In this document: piece after piece, positions 21,543 to 30,563 of the stretch
Numbering within the stretch: position 1 is the stretch's first letter
How the letters are laid out: every line of letters begins with the position of its first letter
Assembly (NCBI RefSeq): GCF_002813425.1
Contig: NZ_PHUL01000001.1
Coordinates: 1,466,001-1,530,000 of the forward strand
DNA: 64,000 nt
DNA from: Cellulophaga sp. RHA19
Lineage (GTDB): Bacteria; Bacteroidota; Bacteroidia; Flavobacteriales; Flavobacteriaceae
Direction of reading: 5' to 3'
The notes under the pieces: generated by a model
Told to the model about the DNA's origin: nothing
What the model saw: only the letters and a program-made list of their open reading frames with translations
The model's database searches: none
Made by a program: the position numbers and the translations under genes

Positions 21543-22817
21543 TTAATCAATTAATTTATTTCTAATTTCTTGCAAGCATAAATTACCCAAGCTGCCTTGG
21601 TGTGTGTATTTAATATCTTTTTTAGGAGCAAAAGTACCTTCGTTAATTTCTTTGCCCATTTTTTTATAAGCATCTCTAAATGGCACACCGTTTAAAACCA
21701 ACTCGTTTAAAGTGTCTACACTAAATAAATAATCATATTTAGGATCCTCTAAAATGGTTTCATTTACACGTACTTCTTTTAAGCTAAAAGTCAGTATTTC
21801 TAAACAAGCTTTAATATCTTGCATGGCAGGTATAATAACTTCTTTTACCAATTGTAAATCTCTGTGGTAACCACTAGGTAGGTTATTAGTTATTAAAATT
21901 AACTGGTTTGGTATAGCTTGTAGTTTGTTGCATTTACCACGTATTAGCTCAAAAACATCTGGGTTTTTCTTATGTGGCATAATGCTAGAACCTGTTGTAA
22001 GCTCGTCTGGGAAAGAAATAAAATTAAAATTCTGACTCATATACAAACAAATATCCATTGCCATTTTAGATAGGGTAGCGGCTACATTGCTAATGCCAAA
22101 AGCAGTAGCTTTTTCTACTTTACCACGGCTCATTTGTGCAGCAACAACATTGTATTTTTGTGTAGCAAAGCCCATTTTTTTAGTAGTAAAATCTCTGTCT
22201 ATAGGAAAAGAACTTCCGTAACCAGCAGCACTACCAAGCGGATTTTGATCTGCTATTTTGTATGCAGCATCAACAAAATATAAATCATCTATTAAACTCT
22301 CTGCATAGGCAGAAAACCAGAGTCCAAAGGAAGATGGCATAGCAATTTGCAAATGCGTATAACCAGGTAATAGTACACCTTTATATTTTTCGGCAAGGTT
22401 TAAAAGCAGGTCAAATAAAACTTTTACTTCGCTCTTAATTTCTTGTAATTCATCTTTTAAATACAAATGCATAGCCACTAAAACCTGATCGTTTCTAGAA
22501 CGTGCTGTATGTATTTTTTTGCCAGTATCTCCTAGTTTTTCGGTTAGTATAAACTCTATTTTAGAGTGCATATCCTCAAAAGAATCTTCAATAACAAAAG
22601 TTCCTTTTTCTATAGTTTTTGCAATTTCATTAAGCTCTTTTACCAAACTTTCTGCTTCTTGTGCTGTAATAAGCCCTATTTTGCCAAGCATTTTTGCATG
22701 AGCTTTAGACGCTATAACATCGTATTTAGCAAGTAGCAAATCTAATTCTCTATCGTTGCCAACAGTAAAGTGATCTATTTTTTTATCGGTACTAAATCCT
22801 TTATCCCAAAGTTTCAT
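21543..22817 (-). CDS. argH: Argininosuccinate lyase
   Basis: Cleaves argininosuccinate to arginine and fumarate, the final step of arginine synthesis. The 424-residue protein belongs to the fumarase/aspartase superfamily; the signature GSSIMPHKKNPD (about 275-286) is present, with HTARSRNDQV and PGYTHLQIAMP earlier in the chain. It is slightly shorter than the 450-460 residues of many ArgH proteins. It is the last gene of the nine-gene operon, 30 bp after the argE-like gene, and is followed by a terminator. Confidence 0.95.
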   Translation of the reverse strand: MKLWDKGFSTDKKIDHFTVGNDRELDLLLAKYDVIASKAHAKMLGKIGLITAQEAESLVKELNEIAKTIEKGTFVIEDSFEDMHSKIEFILTEKLGDTGKKIHTARSRNDQVLVAMHLYLKDELQEIKSEVKVLFDLLLNLAEKYKGVLLPGYTHLQIAMPSSFGLWFSAYAESLIDDLYFVDAAYKIADQNPLGSAAGYGSSFPIDRDFTTKKMGFATQKYNVVAAQMSRGKVEKATAFGISNVAATLSKMAMDICLYMSQNFNFISFPDELTTGSSIMPHKKNPDVFELIRGKCNKLQAIPNQLILITNNLPSGYHRDLQLVKEVIIPAMQDIKACLEILTFSLKEVRVNETILEDPKYDYLFSVDTLNELVLNGVPFRDAYKKMGKEINEGTFAPKKDIKYTHQGSLGNLCLQEIRNKLID

Positions 22818-22847
22818 AATCTTTTTGTTTTTATAGTTGATTGCTTA

Positions 22848-23909
22848 TTACAGAAACCCGTTTAATATTTTAATATATAAATCTATACCTTCTTCAATTT
22901 CATTTACATAAATAAATTCATCTGCAGAATGTGATCTAGTGCTGTCACCTGGACCTAATTTTAAAGATTGACACGTAAGTGCCGCTTGGTCTGATAGTGT
23001 TGGTGAACCATAAGTTTCTCTTCCTAAAGCAATGCCAGATTGCACTAAAGGGTGGCTAATATCTATAGCTGATGAATTTAATTTTAAACCACGCGGAGTA
23101 AGCTTGCAAGGAGCTTCTTTTTGTAACATCTCTGCAACCTCTTTATTTGTATATTTATCATTAACCCTAACATCTATAACCAAGTCTACTTTAGCAGGTA
23201 CAACATTATGTTGCTTGCCAGCATTAATTTGTGTTACCGTAAGTTTTACTTCGCCTAAAACATCAGAAACTTTAGAAAAAGTATAATTTTTAAACCACTC
23301 TAGTACTTTTATACTGTTGTAAATAGAATTATCATTATTAGGGTGCGCTGCATGAGATGGTGTTCCTTTTACTTCTGCGTCAAAAACAACAAGTCCTTTT
23401 TCTGCAATAGCCAACTGCATTAAAGTAGGTTCACCTACAATAGCAACATCTACTTTTGGTAGTTTGGGTAGTAAACCTCTTAAGCTATTTGGTCCGGCAG
23501 ATTCCTCTTCCATAGATGCAACCATAAGTATGTTGTGGTTTAAGTTCTCTGCGTTGTAGTAGTGAACAAATGTAGCCAATAAAGACACCAAACAACCACC
23601 AGCATCATTACTACCTAAGCCGTATAATTTACCGTCTTCTATATGCGGATTAAATGGATCTTTTGTGTAAGCAGAGTTTGGTTTTACAGTGTCATGATGC
23701 GAGTTTAAAAGTAGAGTTGGTTTGCTATTATCCCAATATTTATTTTTTGCATAAACATTGTTATTGTCTCTAGTAAACGGAATATTAAAACTTGTAAACC
23801 AGTTTTCTATTGCATTTGCAGTTTTATCTTCTTCAGAAGAGAACGATTGTATAGATATTAGTTCCTTTAATAAATCTATAGCCTTTTCTGTAAGCTGTTT
23901 TTGTTCCAT
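22848..23909 (-). CDS. argE: M20 family deacylase, N-acyl-ornithine/citrulline deacylase-like
   Basis: A 353-residue zinc metallohydrolase of the M20 family. Metal-ligand motifs are LLNSHHDTVKPN, GSNDAGGCLV and the catalytic VASMEEESAGPNS, with GEPTLMQLAIAEKG after them. In this operon, which uses an N-acyl-ornithine carbamoyltransferase, the natural reaction is removal of the acyl group from N-acetyl- or N-succinyl-citrulline. The symbol argE is used by role. It sits 1 bp after argB and 30 bp before argH. Confidence 0.85.
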   Translation of the reverse strand: MEQKQLTEKAIDLLKELISIQSFSSEEDKTANAIENWFTSFNIPFTRDNNNVYAKNKYWDNSKPTLLLNSHHDTVKPNSAYTKDPFNPHIEDGKLYGLGSNDAGGCLVSLLATFVHYYNAENLNHNILMVASMEEESAGPNSLRGLLPKLPKVDVAIVGEPTLMQLAIAEKGLVVFDAEVKGTPSHAAHPNNDNSIYNSIKVLEWFKNYTFSKVSDVLGEVKLTVTQINAGKQHNVVPAKVDLVIDVRVNDKYTNKEVAEMLQKEAPCKLTPRGLKLNSSAIDISHPLVQSGIALGRETYGSPTLSDQAALTCQSLKLGPGDSTRSHSADEFIYVNEIEEGIDLYIKILNGFL

Positions 23910-23910
23910 T

Positions 23911-24690
23911 TTATAATGTTATAGTGGTGTAAAGCGTTTCATTTTTATTTAACATAGAAACATCTCCTATGCAAACCGTAGTTACTTTTTTGTGCAATGC
24001 ATTAAAGCAGTTCTCAAGTTTTGGGAGCATACCATCTGCAATTATCTTACTATCTAAAAGTTCTTTGTAAGTGTCTGTATTTAATTGTTTTACTACAGAG
24101 TTATTATTAGTTACGTCTAATAAAACACCTTTTTTCTCAAAGCAATAATACAAGGTAGTATCATATAAGCTACTCATTGCAATTGCAATTTCAGAAGCAA
24201 TAGTATCTGCATTGGTATTTAATAATTGCCCAGATTTATTATGCGTAAGTGCACAAAAAACAGGAGTCCAGTTGTTTTGTAGCATAGTATTAATAGCGTT
24301 GCTATTAACAGTTACAATATCACCTGCAAAGCCATAATCTATGTCTTTTACTGGTCTTTTTACTGCTTGTATAACATTAGCATCTGCACCGCTTAATCCT
24401 ATAGCGTTACAATTTATACTTTGTAATTTAGACACAATGTTTTTATTAGCCAAACCACCATATACCATTGTAATTAACTCTAAACTTTGTGCGTCTGTAA
24501 TACGTCTTCCGTTTATAAGTGTAGATTCTATACCTAGTTTTTTTCCGAGTTCTGTAGCTAATTTTCCGCCACCGTGAACTAATATTTTTAGGCCTTCAAT
24601 TTTAGAAAAAGCAATTAAAAACTTACTTAGTTCTTCTTTGTTCTCTATTACGTTGCCGCCAATTTTTACAATGGATAATTTTTGTGCCAT
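23911..24690 (-). CDS. argB: Acetylglutamate kinase
   Basis: Phosphorylates the gamma-carboxyl of N-acylglutamate. The 259-residue amino-acid-kinase fold protein has IVKIGGNVIENKEEL at the N-terminus, LVHGGGKLATELGKKLG (about 37-53), and LSGADANVIQAVKR. The C-terminal arginine-sensing extension of feedback-inhibited argB enzymes is not obvious, and the length matches the short form; feedback inhibition may therefore be weak or act elsewhere. It is spaced 1-2 bp from both neighbours. Confidence 0.93.
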   Translation of the reverse strand: MAQKLSIVKIGGNVIENKEELSKFLIAFSKIEGLKILVHGGGKLATELGKKLGIESTLINGRRITDAQSLELITMVYGGLANKNIVSKLQSINCNAIGLSGADANVIQAVKRPVKDIDYGFAGDIVTVNSNAINTMLQNNWTPVFCALTHNKSGQLLNTNADTIASEIAIAMSSLYDTTLYYCFEKKGVLLDVTNNNSVVKQLNTDTYKELLDSKIIADGMLPKLENCFNALHKKVTTVCIGDVSMLNKNETLYTTITL

Positions 24691-24692
24691 AG

Positions 24693-25631
24693 TTACTGGT
24701 TTTCTAATATTTTTTTTAGTGCTATTTGTGCAGCAAAAGTTCTGTTATTGGCCTGTTCTATTACTAAAGATTGGTTGCTGTCTAAAACAGCATCTTCTAC
24801 AATTACATTTCTGCGTACAGGCAAGCAGTGCATAAATTTAGCAGCTCCTAATTTTTTTAAAGTAATTGTCCAGTTTTTATCTTGATTTATAGTTTTACCA
24901 TAATCTTGATAACTACTCCAGTTTTTAACGTATACAAAATCAGCGTTTTCTAAAGCCTTCTCTTGGTCATATTCTATAGTGGTATTTTTTGTAATATCAG
25001 TATTTAACTCGTACCCTTTTGGGTGTGTAATTACAAAGTCAGCATCTTGCAAATGCATCATTTCTACAAAAGAATTGGCAACTGCGTGCGGTAAAGCTTT
25101 AGGATGTGGAGCCCAAGAAAGTACAACTTTTGGTTTAGGTTTTGTGTTGTTTTCTGCCAAAGTAATAGCGTCTGCCAAAGCTTGTAACGGGTGGCCAACA
25201 GAACTTTCCATATTTAAAATAGGAACTGTGGCGTGTTTTATAAATCCGTTAATAACCAATTCTGCCTCATCTTCTTCTTTATCTTGTAAATTTGCAAAGG
25301 CTCTAATACCAATAACATCACAGTACTGAGAAACTACCTGTGCAGCTTCTTTTACGTGTTCAGATTTACCTTGGTCCATTACAGTACCATCTGTAAATTC
25401 TAGTGTCCAACCTTCAGAACCAAAATTCATTACAATAACCTCCATACCTAGGTTCTGGGCAGCCTTTTGTGTACTTAACCGTGTTCTTAAACTGTTATTA
25501 AAAAATAATAATACAATAGTTTTGTCTTCCCCTAAGTTTTTATATTTTTTAGGGTTTTTCTTTAATTCTATGGCTTCATCAACCCAATTGGGAAGAGAAT
25601 CTATATCTGTTATGGAAACGTAATTTTTCAT
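24693..25631 (-). CDS. argF': N-acyl-ornithine carbamoyltransferase (acetyl- or succinylornithine)
   Basis: A 312-residue transcarbamylase that makes N-acyl-citrulline from N-acyl-ornithine and carbamoyl phosphate. Carbamoyl-phosphate loop: NNSLRTRLSTQKAAQNLG (about 45-62). Further signatures are SSVGHPLQALADAITLAE, SWAPHPKALPHAV and FMHCLPVRRN. The proline-rich and tryptophan-bearing EGWTLEF replaces the free-ornithine motif of normal ArgF. The residue that, from memory, separates acetyl- (Glu) from succinyl- (Pro) specific enzymes is Ser90 here (QGKSEH), so the acyl group is undetermined. It overlaps argD by one base. Confidence 0.88.
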   Translation of the reverse strand: MKNYVSITDIDSLPNWVDEAIELKKNPKKYKNLGEDKTIVLLFFNNSLRTRLSTQKAAQNLGMEVIVMNFGSEGWTLEFTDGTVMDQGKSEHVKEAAQVVSQYCDVIGIRAFANLQDKEEDEAELVINGFIKHATVPILNMESSVGHPLQALADAITLAENNTKPKPKVVLSWAPHPKALPHAVANSFVEMMHLQDADFVITHPKGYELNTDITKNTTIEYDQEKALENADFVYVKNWSSYQDYGKTINQDKNWTITLKKLGAAKFMHCLPVRRNVIVEDAVLDSNQSLVIEQANNRTFAAQIALKKILENQ

Positions 25632-26764
25632 TATAGTTTATTTAATTCGGCTTGTAAAGCATCAAAAAACACATCTATTAAAGCTGTGGTTATGTTTAGC
25701 GCAGGCAGAATACGCAACAAGGTTTTATCTTTAGCTCCGCCAGTAAATACAAACTGATTGTATATCATTTTTTTTCTAAGTTCGCTAACTTCAAAATCAA
25801 ACTGAAGCCCCAACATTAATCCGCGACCTTTTACTTTTTTTATTTGGGGTACGGTAGCTGCTTTTTTCAAAAAGTAAGCATTCATTTTAGCAGCATTGCG
25901 TAGTAAATCTTCTTGTTCTATAACTTCTAAAACTGCTAATGATGCTGCACAGGCCAAATGATTACCACCAAAAGTAGTTCCCAATAAACCGTATGATGCT
26001 TTTATTTTTTCTTGAATTAGAACACCGCCTACAGGAAAACCATTACCCATACCTTTGGCAATTGTTACAATATCTGGTTTTATATTATGATGTTGATAAG
26101 CAAAAAACTCGCCAGTTCTTCCGTAGCCAGACTGTACTTCATCTGCAATTAAAACAACATTGTGTTTTTTACATAATGCTTCTATATTTTGATAAAATTC
26201 TGTTGTAGGCTCGTCTAAACCACCAACGCCTTGTACTGCCTCTAAAATAACAGCACAAACATCATTTTTTTCAATTTCAGTAGTAAAAGATTCAATATCA
26301 TTAAATGCTAAAAAAGTTACTTTCTGTTGTTTGTTTATAGGTGCATTTATAGCAGCATTGTCTGTGGCAGCAACAGCAGCAGATGTTCTACCATGAAATC
26401 CGTTATTAAAAGCAATAACTCTAGATTTGTTGGTGTAGAATGATGCCAATTTTAATGCGTTTTCATTAGCCTCTGCACCAGAATTACATAAAAATAAATT
26501 GTAGTCTGCACAATTAGATAATTGTACTAATTTCTCTGCCAACTCTCCTTGTAATGGGTTTTGCACAGCATTGCTGTAAAAGGCAATTTTATCTAATTGT
26601 TCTTTAATTCTACGTACGTAATGCGGATGAGAATGTCCTATAGAAATAACCGCGTGACCACCGTAAAAATCTAAATATTCCTGACCTTTATCATCTATAA
26701 CCTGACTGCCTTTTGCAGAAACAGGAGTAACATTATATAAAGGGTATACATCAAATAAATTCAT
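25631..26764 (-). CDS. argD: Acetylornithine aminotransferase
   Basis: A 377-residue PLP-dependent class III aminotransferase converting N-acylglutamate semialdehyde to N-acylornithine. LFLCNSGAEANENALKLA and AFNNGFHGRTSAAVAAT (phosphate-binding loops), VLIADEVQSGYGRTG (Asp that holds the PLP nitrogen) and the Schiff-base lysine region VTIAKGMGNGFPVGG are all present. It lies 2 bp after proC and overlaps the carbamoyltransferase gene by one base. Confidence 0.94.
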   Translation of the reverse strand: MNLFDVYPLYNVTPVSAKGSQVIDDKGQEYLDFYGGHAVISIGHSHPHYVRRIKEQLDKIAFYSNAVQNPLQGELAEKLVQLSNCADYNLFLCNSGAEANENALKLASFYTNKSRVIAFNNGFHGRTSAAVAATDNAAINAPINKQQKVTFLAFNDIESFTTEIEKNDVCAVILEAVQGVGGLDEPTTEFYQNIEALCKKHNVVLIADEVQSGYGRTGEFFAYQHHNIKPDIVTIAKGMGNGFPVGGVLIQEKIKASYGLLGTTFGGNHLACAASLAVLEVIEQEDLLRNAAKMNAYFLKKAATVPQIKKVKGRGLMLGLQFDFEVSELRKKMIYNQFVFTGGAKDKTLLRILPALNITTALIDVFFDALQAELNKL

Positions 26765-26766
26765 AC

Positions 26767-27564
26767 TTAATTTTTTACTTTAAACTCACTTATTTTATCA
26801 AACGAAGCCACAATTCCTCTAATTAAAGAAGAACTTAGTCCTTGATGTTCCATCTCATTTAAACCTTTAATAGTGCAACCCATAGGCGTTGTTACACGGT
26901 CTATTTCTTGCTCTGGATGATTGCCAGATTCTATTAATAAACTAGCGGCACCGTTACACGTATGCATTGCCAATTCTTGTGCTTCTTTAGCATCAAAACC
27001 TAGTTGTATTGCTCCTTGTGTAGTAGCACGTATTAATCGCATCCAAAAAGCTATTCCGCTTGCACAAATAACAGTTGCAGCTTGCATTTGACTTTCAGGA
27101 ATTTCTAAAGAATGTCCCATTCTGTTAAAAATAGCTTTAGCCAATTCTATACGTTTTTTACCCATTTCATTGCTACAAACACAGGTCATAGACTGCCCAA
27201 CAGAAATTGCTGTGTTAGGCATACTTCTAATAATATAGGTGTCTTTACCAAGCACAGCTTCAATTTTTTCAATGCTAAAACCGGTTATGGTAGATATTAC
27301 AATATGCTTTTCGGTAAGCAAATCTTTAACATCATTTAAAATAGCTTCAAAATGATTGGGCTGTACAGCAAAAATTAATACGTCAGAATTTTTTACAGCC
27401 TCTCTATTGTCTGCAGTAACAGTTACGTTGCCATAAGTTTTATACTCTTCAATACTTTCTGTACTTCTTTTTGTTAAATACATTGTAGTTGCACCGTTAG
27501 AATTTAAAATTCCTTTGGCAATAGATAATCCTAAGTTTCCTGCACCTATAATAGCTAATTTCAT
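26767..27564 (-). CDS. proC: Pyrroline-5-carboxylate reductase
   Basis: NAD(P)H-dependent reduction of pyrroline-5-carboxylate to proline. The 265-residue protein has the dinucleotide fold IIGAGNLGLSIAKGIL (residues 4-19), SMPNTAISVGQSMT, and the C-terminal active-site region ATTQGAIQLG through TTPMGCTIKGLNEME. Its place between argC and argD links proline and arginine synthesis, which share glutamate semialdehyde chemistry. No separate promoter is seen. Confidence 0.92.
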   Translation of the reverse strand: MKLAIIGAGNLGLSIAKGILNSNGATTMYLTKRSTESIEEYKTYGNVTVTADNREAVKNSDVLIFAVQPNHFEAILNDVKDLLTEKHIVISTITGFSIEKIEAVLGKDTYIIRSMPNTAISVGQSMTCVCSNEMGKKRIELAKAIFNRMGHSLEIPESQMQAATVICASGIAFWMRLIRATTQGAIQLGFDAKEAQELAMHTCNGAASLLIESGNHPEQEIDRVTTPMGCTIKGLNEMEHQGLSSSLIRGIVASFDKISEFKVKN

Positions 27565-27590
27565 ATCGGTTTTTATTTTTTAGATTGATG

Positions 27591-28565
27591 TTAAAATGCG
27601 GATGCTTTTAAGTTTAGACCTTCATTTTCATTAAAACCGTACATTAAATTCATATTCTGTACAGCTTGTCCAGAGGCACCTTTTAGTAAATTATCTATAG
27701 CAGATGTAACTAATAAATTGCCATTGTGTAGGTGTAAATGCAAGTGACATTGGTTTGTGTTTACTACTTGTTTTAAATGAATTTCTGTATCAGATATGTT
27801 TGTAAACTTTGCATTAGCATAAAAATTAGTATATAACTCATAAGCATCTTGTATACTACCTTTATATTTTGTGTAAGCAGTAGCAAAAATACCTCTGGCA
27901 AAGTTTCCTCTTTGTGGGAGAAATAGTAGCTCGCCAATTTCATTTTTAAAAGACTGCAAACTTTCGCCTATTTCACCTAAATGTTGGTGTGTAAATGGTT
28001 TGTACCAAGACACATTATTGTTACGCCAGCTAAAATGGGTAGAGTCGCTTGGTTTTACACCAGCACCAGTACTACCAGTTACAGCATTTATATGCACATC
28101 ATTATGCAAAATATTTGCTTTTGCCAATGGCAGTAATGCAAGCTGAATTGCTGTAGCAAAACAACCTGGATTTGCAATGTAATTAGCTGTTTTTATTTTG
28201 TCTTTATTAGTTTCTGGTAGGCCGTAAATAAATTCCTTCCCGTTTAAAGTAGCATCATTATGTAGCCTAAAATCATTACTTAAATCTATAATTTTAGTGT
28301 TACTTGAAAATGAATTTTCTGTTAAGAAAGTGGTAGAGTTACCGTGACCAAGGCACAAAAAAACAAGATCTATATTTAAGTTTACATCGCCAGTGAACTT
28401 AAGATCTGTTTGTCCTAGCAAATCTGGATGTGCTGTTGTAATATTTTTACCAGCTCTAGTTGTGCTGTAAATGAAATCTATATTTACTTTAGGGTGATTT
28501 AAAAGTAACCTTATTAACTCACCACCTGTGTAACCAGAACCACCAATAATACCTATGTTAATCAT
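27591..28565 (-). CDS. argC: N-acetyl-gamma-glutamyl-phosphate reductase
   Basis: A 324-residue semialdehyde dehydrogenase that reduces N-acylglutamyl phosphate with NADPH. The nucleotide-binding motif is IIGGSGYTGGELIRLL (5-20), and the active-site cysteine lies in YIANPGCFATAIQLALLPLA. VTGSTGAGVKPS and the His in FTHQHLGEI are also family features. It sits 5 bp after argG and 26 bp before proC. Confidence 0.94.
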   Translation of the reverse strand: MINIGIIGGSGYTGGELIRLLLNHPKVNIDFIYSTTRAGKNITTAHPDLLGQTDLKFTGDVNLNIDLVFLCLGHGNSTTFLTENSFSSNTKIIDLSNDFRLHNDATLNGKEFIYGLPETNKDKIKTANYIANPGCFATAIQLALLPLAKANILHNDVHINAVTGSTGAGVKPSDSTHFSWRNNNVSWYKPFTHQHLGEIGESLQSFKNEIGELLFLPQRGNFARGIFATAYTKYKGSIQDAYELYTNFYANAKFTNISDTEIHLKQVVNTNQCHLHLHLHNGNLLVTSAIDNLLKGASGQAVQNMNLMYGFNENEGLNLKASAF

Positions 28566-28570
28566 CCTAT

Positions 28571-29755
28571 TTAATTTTTATTTACGTGATTGTATATTTT
28601 ACCAGAGTTAGATAAAATTTTAATAAACCCTTTTGCGTCGTCAGCTGTCCATCCTTTATTCATTTCGCCATAACTACCAAAAGAAGCATTCATAAGATCG
28701 TGTTTAGATGCTATTCCATTAAGCTCAAACCTGTATGGATGTAGCGTGATAAATACATCTCCGGAAACATTTTTTTGAGTGTCTTTAAGAAAAGCTTCAA
28801 TGTTACGCATTACTTCATCTAGGTAATTACCCTCATGTAATAACATACCATAAAAGTTACCTTGTTGTTCTTTTTGGTATTGTTGCCATTTTGTAAGTGT
28901 GTGTTTTTCTAACAAATGGTGTGCTTTTATAATTAGTAATGATGCAGCTGCCTCAAAACCAACTCTACCTTTAATACCAATAATTGTATCGCCAACGTGT
29001 ATATCTCTACCAATAGCAAATTTAGAAGCAACATCATTTAACTTTGTAATGTTGTTAATAGGCTTATCTTGTTCATCATTAATAGCGGTAAGTTCTCCTT
29101 TAGTAAAAGTTAACTTAACGTCTAAGGGGTTATTTTCTGTAAGCTGACTAGGATATGCAGTGTCTGGCAATGGAGAATGTGATGTTAGTGTTTCATCACC
29201 ACCAACAGAAGTTCCCCAAAGCCCTTTGTTAATAGAGTATTTTGCCTTTTCCCAAGGGTAGTCAACACCATTTTCCTTTAAATATGCAATTTCTACTTCT
29301 CTAGATAATTGGTTGTCTCTAATAGGAGTAATAATTTCTATTTCAGGAGCAATTATCTGAAAAATCATATCAAACCTAACCTGGTCATTACCAGCACCTG
29401 TACTACCGTGCGCAATATATTTTGCACCTATTTTTTTAGCGTGATTTACAATTTCTATAGCTTGTACAATACGTTCAGCACTAACAGATAATGGGTATGT
29501 ATTGTTTTTTAAAACATTACCAAAAATTAAATACTTTACAACTTTGTTATAAAAAGTCTGCACGGCATCTATAGAAGTATAGCTACTTGCGCCTAATTCT
29601 ATGGCTTTCTTTTTAATGTTAGAAATTTCTTGTGTAGAGAAACCGCCAGTATTTACACTAACAGCGTGTACCTCAAAACCTTTGTCTTTTGATAAATATT
29701 TTGCGCAGTAAGACGTATCTAAACCACCGCTATATGCTAAAACTAATTTACTCAT
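28571..29755 (-). CDS. argG: Argininosuccinate synthase
   Basis: ATP-dependent joining of citrulline and aspartate. The 394-residue protein opens with the pyrophosphatase loop LVLAYSGGLDTSYCAKYL (3-20) and contains HGSTGAGNDQVRFD and the citrulline/aspartate-binding segment WGTSVGGDETLTSH. The length is normal. It overlaps the upstream GNAT gene by 8 bp and is the second structural gene behind the leader. Confidence 0.95.
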   Translation of the reverse strand: MSKLVLAYSGGLDTSYCAKYLSKDKGFEVHAVSVNTGGFSTQEISNIKKKAIELGASSYTSIDAVQTFYNKVVKYLIFGNVLKNNTYPLSVSAERIVQAIEIVNHAKKIGAKYIAHGSTGAGNDQVRFDMIFQIIAPEIEIITPIRDNQLSREVEIAYLKENGVDYPWEKAKYSINKGLWGTSVGGDETLTSHSPLPDTAYPSQLTENNPLDVKLTFTKGELTAINDEQDKPINNITKLNDVASKFAIGRDIHVGDTIIGIKGRVGFEAAASLLIIKAHHLLEKHTLTKWQQYQKEQQGNFYGMLLHEGNYLDEVMRNIEAFLKDTQKNVSGDVFITLHPYRFELNGIASKHDLMNASFGSYGEMNKGWTADDAKGFIKILSNSGKIYNHVNKN

Positions 29756-30374
29756 CTTTATTTTTCTTTTTTAAGAACAATTGTTCTTTTATGCTTTTTA
29801 ATCTTTTAAATACTTTGCCATCTACCTCTTTTTTTTGGGTAGCTTTTTGTTTTGCAGCAGGATCGTACAACATACCAGTGCACAAACACATTTTTTGTTC
29901 TGTTCTGGTTAGTACATCAAAATTTTTACAAGTTTGGCAGCCTTTCCAAAATTCAGGGTCGTCTGTAAGTTCAGAAAATGTAACAGGTTTGTAACCAAGC
30001 TCGTAGTTCATTTTCATAACAGCTAAGCCTGTAGTAATACCAAATATTTTTGCGTCAGGAAATTTTTCTCTAGAGAGCTTAAAAATTCGTTCTTTAATTT
30101 GTTTTGCAAGTCCAAGATTTCTAAAATCTGGATGAACAATAAGTCCAGAATTGGCAACAAATTTATTGTGTCCCCAAACCTCTATGTAACAAAAACCTGC
30201 AAATTTTTCTCCGTCTAATGCAATAACAGCATTACCATTTTGTAGCCTTTTTAAAATATATTCTGGCGTACGTTTGGCAATACCAGTACCGCGTACTTTG
30301 GCAGAATCTGTTATTGTATCAGAAATTATTTGCGCATATTTAATATGCGATGCATTAGCAATTACAATTCTCAT
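29748..30374 (-). CDS. GNAT N-acetyltransferase, candidate N-acylglutamate synthase
   Basis: A 208-residue acetyltransferase-fold protein heading the arginine operon. The acyl-CoA loop is RNLGLA (85-90) within IVHPDFRNLGLAKQIKERIF. No classical ArgA or ArgJ is present in the operon, so this protein is the obvious candidate for the first step (glutamate N-acylation). A second feature is a cysteine cluster, C146-X2-C149 and C163-X-C165 (GCQTCK and MCLCTG), suggesting bound zinc or iron-sulfur. The C-terminus is a lysine-rich tail. It is the first gene after the leader at 30418-30563. Confidence 0.78.
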   Translation of the reverse strand: MRIVIANASHIKYAQIISDTITDSAKVRGTGIAKRTPEYILKRLQNGNAVIALDGEKFAGFCYIEVWGHNKFVANSGLIVHPDFRNLGLAKQIKERIFKLSREKFPDAKIFGITTGLAVMKMNYELGYKPVTFSELTDDPEFWKGCQTCKNFDVLTRTEQKMCLCTGMLYDPAAKQKATQKKEVDGKVFKRLKSIKEQLFLKKKNKDE

Positions 30375-30417: not shown

Positions 30418-30445
30418 AAAAACGGAATTGGACTCACCTAATTCC
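30418..30445 (-). terminator. Attenuator-like hairpin in the arginine-operon leader
   Basis: On the minus strand GGAATT (30445-30440) pairs with AATTCC (30429-30424) and is followed by G and five T (30422-30418). It lies 44 bp before the GNAT start and 18 bp after the leader-peptide stop. The hairpin is modest (6 bp plus one more G-C inside), so termination would be conditional rather than strong. Confidence 0.55.
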
Positions 30446-30463
30446 TATATAGAAGTAATACCC

Positions 30464-30547
30464 TTACGGGCGGCGGCGTGTAGGAACAAGCGTAGCTAAG
30501 GGTGTAGAAACCCTGCTAATAAATAATATGTTTGTGTTCTTGTTCAT
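30464..30547 (-). CDS. Arginine-operon leader peptide (27 aa, ends in Arg-Arg-Arg-Pro)
   Basis: An ATG-initiated minus-strand ORF of 27 codons that starts MNKNTNILFI and ends LVPTRRRP followed by TAA. The three consecutive arginine codons are all CGC (30478-30470), in an operon whose genes mostly use AGA and CGT. Placement just ahead of a hairpin with a T-tract and the first arginine gene is the classic layout of ribosome-mediated attenuation: arginine shortage would stall the ribosome on the CGC run. A second structure, ACCCTTA (30503-30497) with TAAGGGT (30466-30460), encloses the codon run. The peptide itself needs no function. Confidence 0.75.
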   Translation of the reverse strand: MNKNTNILFISRVSTPLATLVPTRRRP

Positions 30548-30555
30548 TACAAGAT

Positions 30556-30563
30556 CAAATGTA
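30556..30563 (-). promoter_or_regulatory. Bacteroidota -7 box for the arginine operon
   Basis: On the minus strand TACATTTG matches TAnnTTTG, ending 8 bp before the leader-peptide ATG. The -33 region shows only TTAG at a fitting distance. Transcription from here would start close to the leader ATG, giving a very short or absent 5' UTR for the peptide. Confidence 0.5.

Follow-up and report, generated by a model that had tools for sequence, protein, structure and literature searches.

Organization of the arginine operon and its leader

The window analysed is a stretch of 64,000 nucleotides from the genome of Cellulophaga sp. RHA19. A nine-gene arginine operon lies on its minus strand, downstream of a short leader, and ends with the gene at 21543-22817. 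By profile scores, the genes encode in order a GNAT-family protein, ArgG, ArgC, ProC, ArgD, an N-acetylornithine-carbamoyltransferase-like protein, ArgB, an ArgE/DapE-type deacylase, and ArgH, several of these assignments scoring below the curated cut-offs of NCBI. The proC-like gene (26767-27564) links the operon to proline synthesis. No curated N-acetylglutamate synthase model matched the GNAT gene, for which NCBIfam gave only PRK07757, far under its cut-off. This gene is the sole evident candidate for the first step within the operon, and it may encode the first-step enzyme, N-acetylglutamate synthase.

The leader contains a 27-codon open reading frame (ORF) with three consecutive arginine codons close to its end (Table 1). 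The ORF, arginine run, hairpin, and T-run described in the earlier note proved exact when the sequence was read again; two further hairpins, P1, which spans the final arginine codon together with the stop, and P0, were absent from that description. The box TACATTTG, which we take to be a -7 promoter box by its consensus, lies so near the ATG that the leader mRNA would be almost leaderless. A TAnnTT box was located 5-8 nt upstream of the ATG in 103 of the 135 leaders classed as one-ORF (see below). The genome scan detected AGGTGNGTCC twice in this genome; the other copy lies in an apparent coding sequence and is not accompanied by the element, so that a dispersed repeat, raised in the earlier note as an objection, was ruled out.

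Table 1. Positions of the leader features and operon genes within the window
Feature	Position	Strand	Basis
Putative -7 promoter box TACATTTG, 8 nt ahead of ATG	30556..30563	-	sequence
Leader ORF MNKNTNILFISRVSTPLATLVPTRRRP-stop, 27 codons, ATG at 30547, TAA at 30466-30464	30464..30547	-	sequence and relatives
Hairpin P0 (AGGGTTTCTACACCCT), 3' end 20 nt ahead of the first arginine codon of the run	30499..30514	-	stem search and codon shuffles
Arginine run CGC CGC CGC	30470..30478	-	sequence and relatives
Hairpin P1, CGCCC-GTAA-GGGTA, with last Arg and Pro codons, stop codon in loop	30459..30472	-	alignments A1 and A2
Hairpin P2, GGAATT (30445-30440)/AATTCC (30429-30424), bulged A (30439), GG/CC, loop TGAGT	30424..30445	-	alignments A1 and A2
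TTTTT after P2, one G between	30418..30422	-	sequence; in L001-L005 and scattered others
GNAT-family protein, operon gene 1	29748..30374	-	profile scores
argG	28571..29755	-	profile scores
argC, proC, argD, carbamoyltransferase, argB, argE/dapE-like, argH	21543..28565	-	profile scores

Conservation of the leader in Flavobacteriaceae

Of 60 relatives, 37 had a GNAT homologue, and 30 of these were made into loci. A further 80 named GNAT loci, the best 80 among the matches listed, represent Cellulophaga, Zobellia, Maribacter, Arenibacter, Muricauda, and others. Together, these 110 GNAT-chosen loci comprise 103 distinct upstream segments, with some genomes represented twice and a bias to near relatives. 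The core GGTGNGTCC was present shortly upstream of the GNAT gene in 109 of the 110, and an ORF with an in-frame ATG, ending in RRP-stop 60-130 nt ahead of that gene, was present in 101 (all except L021-L023, L026-L030, and L056). An ORF with an arginine run near the GNAT gene or argG, which the earlier note proposed to look for in this family, is widespread. Reading frame and run are kept upstream of the GNAT-argG-argC operon, and the conservation of the leader is far beyond chance.

From 96 aligned segments, we derived a covariance model with 72 positions and 13 pairs; searches of more than 40 genomes were run with stricter filters. Among 299 Flavobacteriaceae genomes, 191 gave a match at E<=0.1 (weaker than 0.001 in 10 of these), and the other 108 gave none. 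In the order-wide search of 246 genomes, all 16 places at E<=1e-4, the window itself included, were within Flavobacteriaceae, and the best match in another family reached only E 0.0037. The class-wide search of 198 genomes gave three strong matches, all in Flavobacteriaceae, and a best value outside the family of E 0.0048. One hundred loci were fetched from the Flavobacteriaceae match list, among the matches listed (down to E 5.4e-9). All of them lead into argG, with the GNAT gene between in 98. In L125 and L145, the element is followed by argG, and no GNAT gene was recognisable by tblastn. Secondary matches of the model (R1) occurred in 21 genomes and were weak, the best reaching E 1.6e-4 and most lying above 0.001; in the three that were read, including the two strongest, no arg gene was found by tblastn and both hairpins were not present together.

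For counts across leaders, 226 oriented leaders were chosen by GGTGNGTCC, of which 195 are distinct; the set is hence silent on the invariance of the P2 loop. All 195 also carry CGCCC or CGCAC in the 60 nt ahead of GGTGNGTCC. The core is absent from L030, L177, L193, L201, L207, L232, L235, and the GNAT loci L250-L275, which lie outside the set. Judged by sequence, the leader seems to serve family-wide, within Bacteroidota, as an element by which arginine controls its own biosynthesis.

One-ORF and two-ORF layouts

Near relatives of Cellulophaga mostly have a single, nearly leaderless ORF. In the other layout, to which a heuristic split assigned 60 of the 195 leaders (a few of the calls lying inside the end of the upstream gene), a first ORF with an arginine run of its own (e.g., MKNLKNKIRC..PGLP.RNRRRF-stop) is typically located 125-146 nt further upstream (extremes 120 and 176), and the second ORF terminates as (F)PRRP-stop on P1. 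A TAnnTT box precedes the first ORF by 4-6 nt in 51 of the 60. By eye, many two-ORF leaders (L142-L217) likewise enclose the stop codon of their first ORF in a small hairpin of the GCUAA...UUAGC type, with a recurring U-rich stretch after this hairpin.

Arginine run and codon choice

Of the 195 distinct leaders, 12 have a run of one arginine codon, 57 of two, 89 of three, and 37 of four, so that at least two consecutive arginine codons are present in 183. Apart from the codon within P1, the run codons were CGT (212), CGC (127), CGA (6), and CGG (1), and AGA or AGG occurred at 0 of 346 positions. By comparison, the arginine codons in the 51 long ORFs of the window are AGA (270), CGT (127), AGG (53), CGC (32), CGA (25), and CGG (4), giving an AGA/AGG share of 323/511 (63%). 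The share was about half (1320/2708) in 302 open frames, some of them spurious, from 80 relatives' loci, and in the 11 codons immediately ahead of the run it was 30/246. tRNA-Arg genes with the anticodons ACG, TCT, and TCG were found when 30 of 35 tRNA places were made into loci and scanned; CGY codons are read by tRNA-Arg(ACG).

Run codons beyond P1 vary between CGC and CGT, and the amino acid stays arginine. The codon bias may partly reflect a constraint on the RNA, but the exchange of C and T outside P1 suggests that decoding is under selection. Near the end of the peptide, Arg-Pro stands immediately ahead of the stop codon in 179 of 195 leaders, a stop does not directly follow the proline in 13 further leaders, and Phe and Pro recur upstream of the run.

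Conserved hairpins P1, P2, and P0

Covariation was assessed on two alignments. A1 (96 rows) was aligned without the covariance model, but its structure was drawn from that model; it admits only segments with GGTGNGTCC and CGCCC and left out L021, L030, and near-duplicates. A2 (99 rows) was fitted to the model and so leans towards it. With the caveat that related sequences can exceed such shuffles, 96.1% of the cells pair in A1 versus 93.6% in shuffles, with two-sided changes at 6 of 13 pairs (25 cells versus 4.7). Under the same caveat, 96.7% of the cells pair in A2 versus 88.6% in shuffles, with two-sided changes at 8 of 13 pairs (89 cells versus 21.4). Further pair types in A2 were the weakest measure (18 versus 15.3, reached in 7 of 500 shuffles).

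In P2, two-sided changes were observed at all six pairs of the lower stem and at one of the two apical pairs (G-C to A-U in 3/99 rows) in A2. The bulge contains zero to three bases across leaders, and the loop is UGNGU; four of the 100 fetched loci (L177, L193, L201, and L207) differ from GGUGNGUCC, as do L232 and L235. The distance from the P1 arginine codon to the P2 core is 31-37 nt, being 33 or 34 nt in 142 of 195 leaders.

P1 pairs CGCCC with GGGUG in the consensus and mostly contains the stop codon in its loop. In the window, its outermost pair is an unpaired C-A, and the same position is unpaired in 18/96 and 24/99 rows of the relatives. As a helix, P1 has good but thinner evidence behind it than P2, because P1 is mostly invariant (C-G to A-U in 2/99 and G-U to G-C in 7/99 rows of A2) and shows no two-sided change in A1. 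In the divergent L021, L184, and L197, the stem is kept by compensation as CGCAC/GUGCG. An obligatory GNRA tetraloop in P1 was rejected, since the loops GUUA, UUAA, CUAG, and GUUU occur.

Among 61 non-redundant one-ORF leaders whose run has at least three codons, a third stem, P0, ends 19-21 nt ahead of the run in 34, against a mean of 3.4 and a maximum of 9 in 200 codon shuffles; in the other 27 it was not found at this distance. The distance from P0 to the first arginine codon peaks at 20-21 nt for runs of three and four alike, and the size and sequence of P0 vary. Since about 20 nt is roughly the span from the rear edge of a ribosome to its A site, P0 could refold as the ribosome reaches the run. 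An anchored-column covariation scan, which is blind to helices of shifting position such as P0, revealed no other helix.

Terminator, antiterminator, and predicted folding

The earlier note had described P2 as a T-tailed hairpin. This holds for the genome in which it was noticed, with its five T, but is not general: TTTT follows P2 within 9 nt in only 26 of the 195 leaders, this genome among them, so that an intrinsic terminator is not the rule. Most relatives lack the T-run, additional members of the genus among them, and the mean T content after P2 is about 0.27 versus 0.37 further downstream. A simple terminator scanner, whose loop and G-C limits may exclude P2, did not list it (7 terminators found versus 7.2 in shuffles).

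The two longer switch pairings suggested before were not conserved. TTCCTA/TAGGAA paired in 49.7% of cells versus 49.0% in shuffles and TTACTT/AGGTGA in 41.5% versus 41.5%; as a switch, both were rejected as no better than shuffles. Pairing of the arginine codons with GGUG of P2, predicted above 0.3 in only 4/80 and 4/56 leaders, was likewise rejected, as was a fixed upstream partner of P2, none being found in the one-ORF or the two-ORF group. Neither covariation nor folding revealed a mutually exclusive antiterminator, a search in which weak or variable pairings could be missed.

The predicted formation of P2 reached medians of 0.82 (one-ORF) and 0.38 (two-ORF) in the ribosome-free leader, 0.90 and 0.76 with a ribosome at the first arginine codon, and 0.97 and 0.90 with a ribosome at the stop codon. 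In the free leader, the competitors of P2 vary between species. In these models, the ribosome effect on folding is strongest in the two-ORF group and favours P2 whenever the run or the stop is occupied. The predicted response lacks the kind of difference that a classical attenuator requires, and P2 looks like an output element rather than a switched helix. P1 would be blocked alike by a ribosome at either place.

A check against Rfam 15, which the earlier note had also put forward, yielded no family, T-box included, either for the element as it stands in the window (E up to 5) or for the loci of six relatives (E up to 1).

Other possible arginine leaders nearby in the phylogeny

In genus g147 (probably Flavobacterium), 12 of 15 loci of the best GNAT match (L250-L261) have a different leader. 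By eye, its ORF (SRTN.P.TSPEVR) carries CGG arginine codons beside small hairpins, and P2 is absent. This alternative leader was not seen in L262, L263, and L265. It is possibly an independent arginine leader. In other families of the order (L030, L266, L264, and L269-L271), arginine-containing ORFs, with ends such as MNLRRRRPVRR and RFFRRPLWVLN, were seen by eye ahead of the same operon, again not accompanied by P2. In L030 and L266, a hairpin with the loop UACGU follows, and L271 has a P1-like hairpin.

Proposed mechanism and alternatives

The earlier note had read the leader as an arginine leader peptide in cis ahead of the arginine operon. This reading has gained from the conserved frame and run, from the finding that the segment is not a dispersed repeat, and from the near restriction of the run codons to CGY. 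With a probability of roughly 0.7, we consider the leader to be an arginine-responsive leader-peptide element that acts in cis on the arginine operon with the ribosome as sensor, because its location, the run, its codon choice, and the overlap of P1 with the run fit this reading. Under a shortage of charged tRNA-Arg for CGY, the ribosome would stall at the run, P1 would be prevented, P0 would refold just behind the ribosome, and the operon would be expressed. When arginine is plentiful, the ribosome would complete the peptide and depart, P1 and P2 would coexist, and expression would be lower. Counted against this reading are the missing U-tract in most species, the failure to find a conserved mutually exclusive pairing, the predicted formation of P2, which stays high with a ribosome at the run or the stop and drops in the free leader, contrary to the switch required, the 12 leaders with a single arginine, the AGA/AGG codons that are used just ahead of the run, the 108 genomes with no match to the model, the lack of two-sided changes in P1 on A1, the 27 leaders in which P0 was not found at 19-21 nt, and the equal blocking of P1 by ribosomes at run and stop.

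It is possible, though doubtful, that P2 is a site for a putative RNA-binding protein or ribosomal component, whose action would be combined with ribosome position. Apical GG, UGNGU, and CC recur in 109 of 110 GNAT-chosen loci above a lower stem that varies and covaries, and the bulged A, two pairs, and small loop resemble the operator of the MS2 coat protein, which has this layout. However, there is no candidate protein, the variants L177, L193, L201, and L207 exist, and a role of the loop in folding or in contacting RNA is just as conceivable. A classical transcription attenuator of the trp/his type, with P2 as intrinsic terminator and an opposing antiterminator, is unlikely; it would account for the five or six T after P2 in L001-L005, this genome included, but not for the rarity of TTTT and the low T content after P2 elsewhere or for the failure of covariation and folding to reveal an antiterminator.

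Metabolite-sensing arrest peptides such as TnaC and SpeFL are a model for stalling at Pro-stop. A peptide F.P.RRRP-stop that senses free arginine in this manner would agree with the frequent Arg-Pro ahead of the stop (179/195) and with the recurring Phe and Pro. But the proline is replaced by threonine in L021, L184, and L197 while the P1 stem stays, 13 further leaders do not place the stop right after the proline, and codon choice is constrained beyond the amino acid, and nascent-peptide arrest is accordingly given little credence. Decay control in the style of Salmonella speF, in which ribosome progress over the arginine codons would set a ribonuclease-sensitive fold, shares the logic of consecutive arginine codons and downstream folds (PMC6386406); the gene and the fold differ from speF, however, and this appears improbable.

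For ribosome-mediated sensing in cis, premature transcription termination, factor-assisted in most species and perhaps intrinsic here, carries about one half of the weight as the output, and RNA decay or protein binding at P2 carries the rest. As a rather tentative extension, a two-part sensor may be envisaged, in which a CGY-bound ribosome controls P1 and the UGNGU loop of P2 is recognised by a trans-acting factor, leader peptide and protein- or ribosome-binding hairpin deciding jointly with no terminator/antiterminator pair. This group of bacteria makes little use of Shine-Dalgarno sequences. The leader would offer a clean system for leader-peptide control of an operon in which the usual terminator and antiterminator are apparently missing, and the strongly conserved P2 loop could serve as bait for the putative factor.

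Comparison with known systems

In attenuators of the trp/his type, a leader ORF carrying consecutive codons for the product precedes the biosynthesis operon, and the arginine leader resembles them in this arrangement. Unlike them, it has no general U-tailed terminator, no antiterminator was found by covariation or folding, and the P2 loop is strongly conserved. We class it as a variant of control by leader peptides, not as a classical attenuator, because the terminator feature was tested and is absent in most members. Ribosome-mediated attenuators of the trp/his type are the subject of a screening paper (PMC2965389). Actinobacterial cys leader peptides likewise have a codon run near the stop and no evident terminator; no conserved terminator-capable hairpin is reported for them, whereas two to three conserved hairpins are present here (PMC1262725).

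Within the phylum, structured 5' regions of Flavobacterium psychrophilum provide clues for leader-peptide attenuation at amino-acid operons, and the main-text section names pheA, hisG, and others, with no arginine operon among them (PMC9723704). GUCCY-hairpin and Bacteroid-trp are conserved RNA motifs listed for Bacteroidetes (PMC2864571); the likeness consists in this listing. In the literature searched, which excluded supplements and most subscription papers, we found no description of a leader peptide for arginine biosynthesis in Bacteroidota.

In that literature, arginine-codon leader peptides are known from speF and rbfL, not from arginine biosynthesis. The consecutive arginine codons of orf34 in the Salmonella speF leader sense arginine and choose between mRNA folds, and the run in the present leader ORF is like them by description (PMC6386406). 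The speF system differs in that an ornithine decarboxylase is controlled, transcription starts 516 nt ahead of speF, and the mechanism works via Rho, masking of the ribosome-binding site, and RNase G (PMC6386406). Similarly, arginine codons in the leader peptide of Staphylococcus aureus rbfL sense arginine shortage, but these are AGA/AGG codons, and the leader is described as blocking the ribosome-binding site of a biofilm regulator (PMC13009471).
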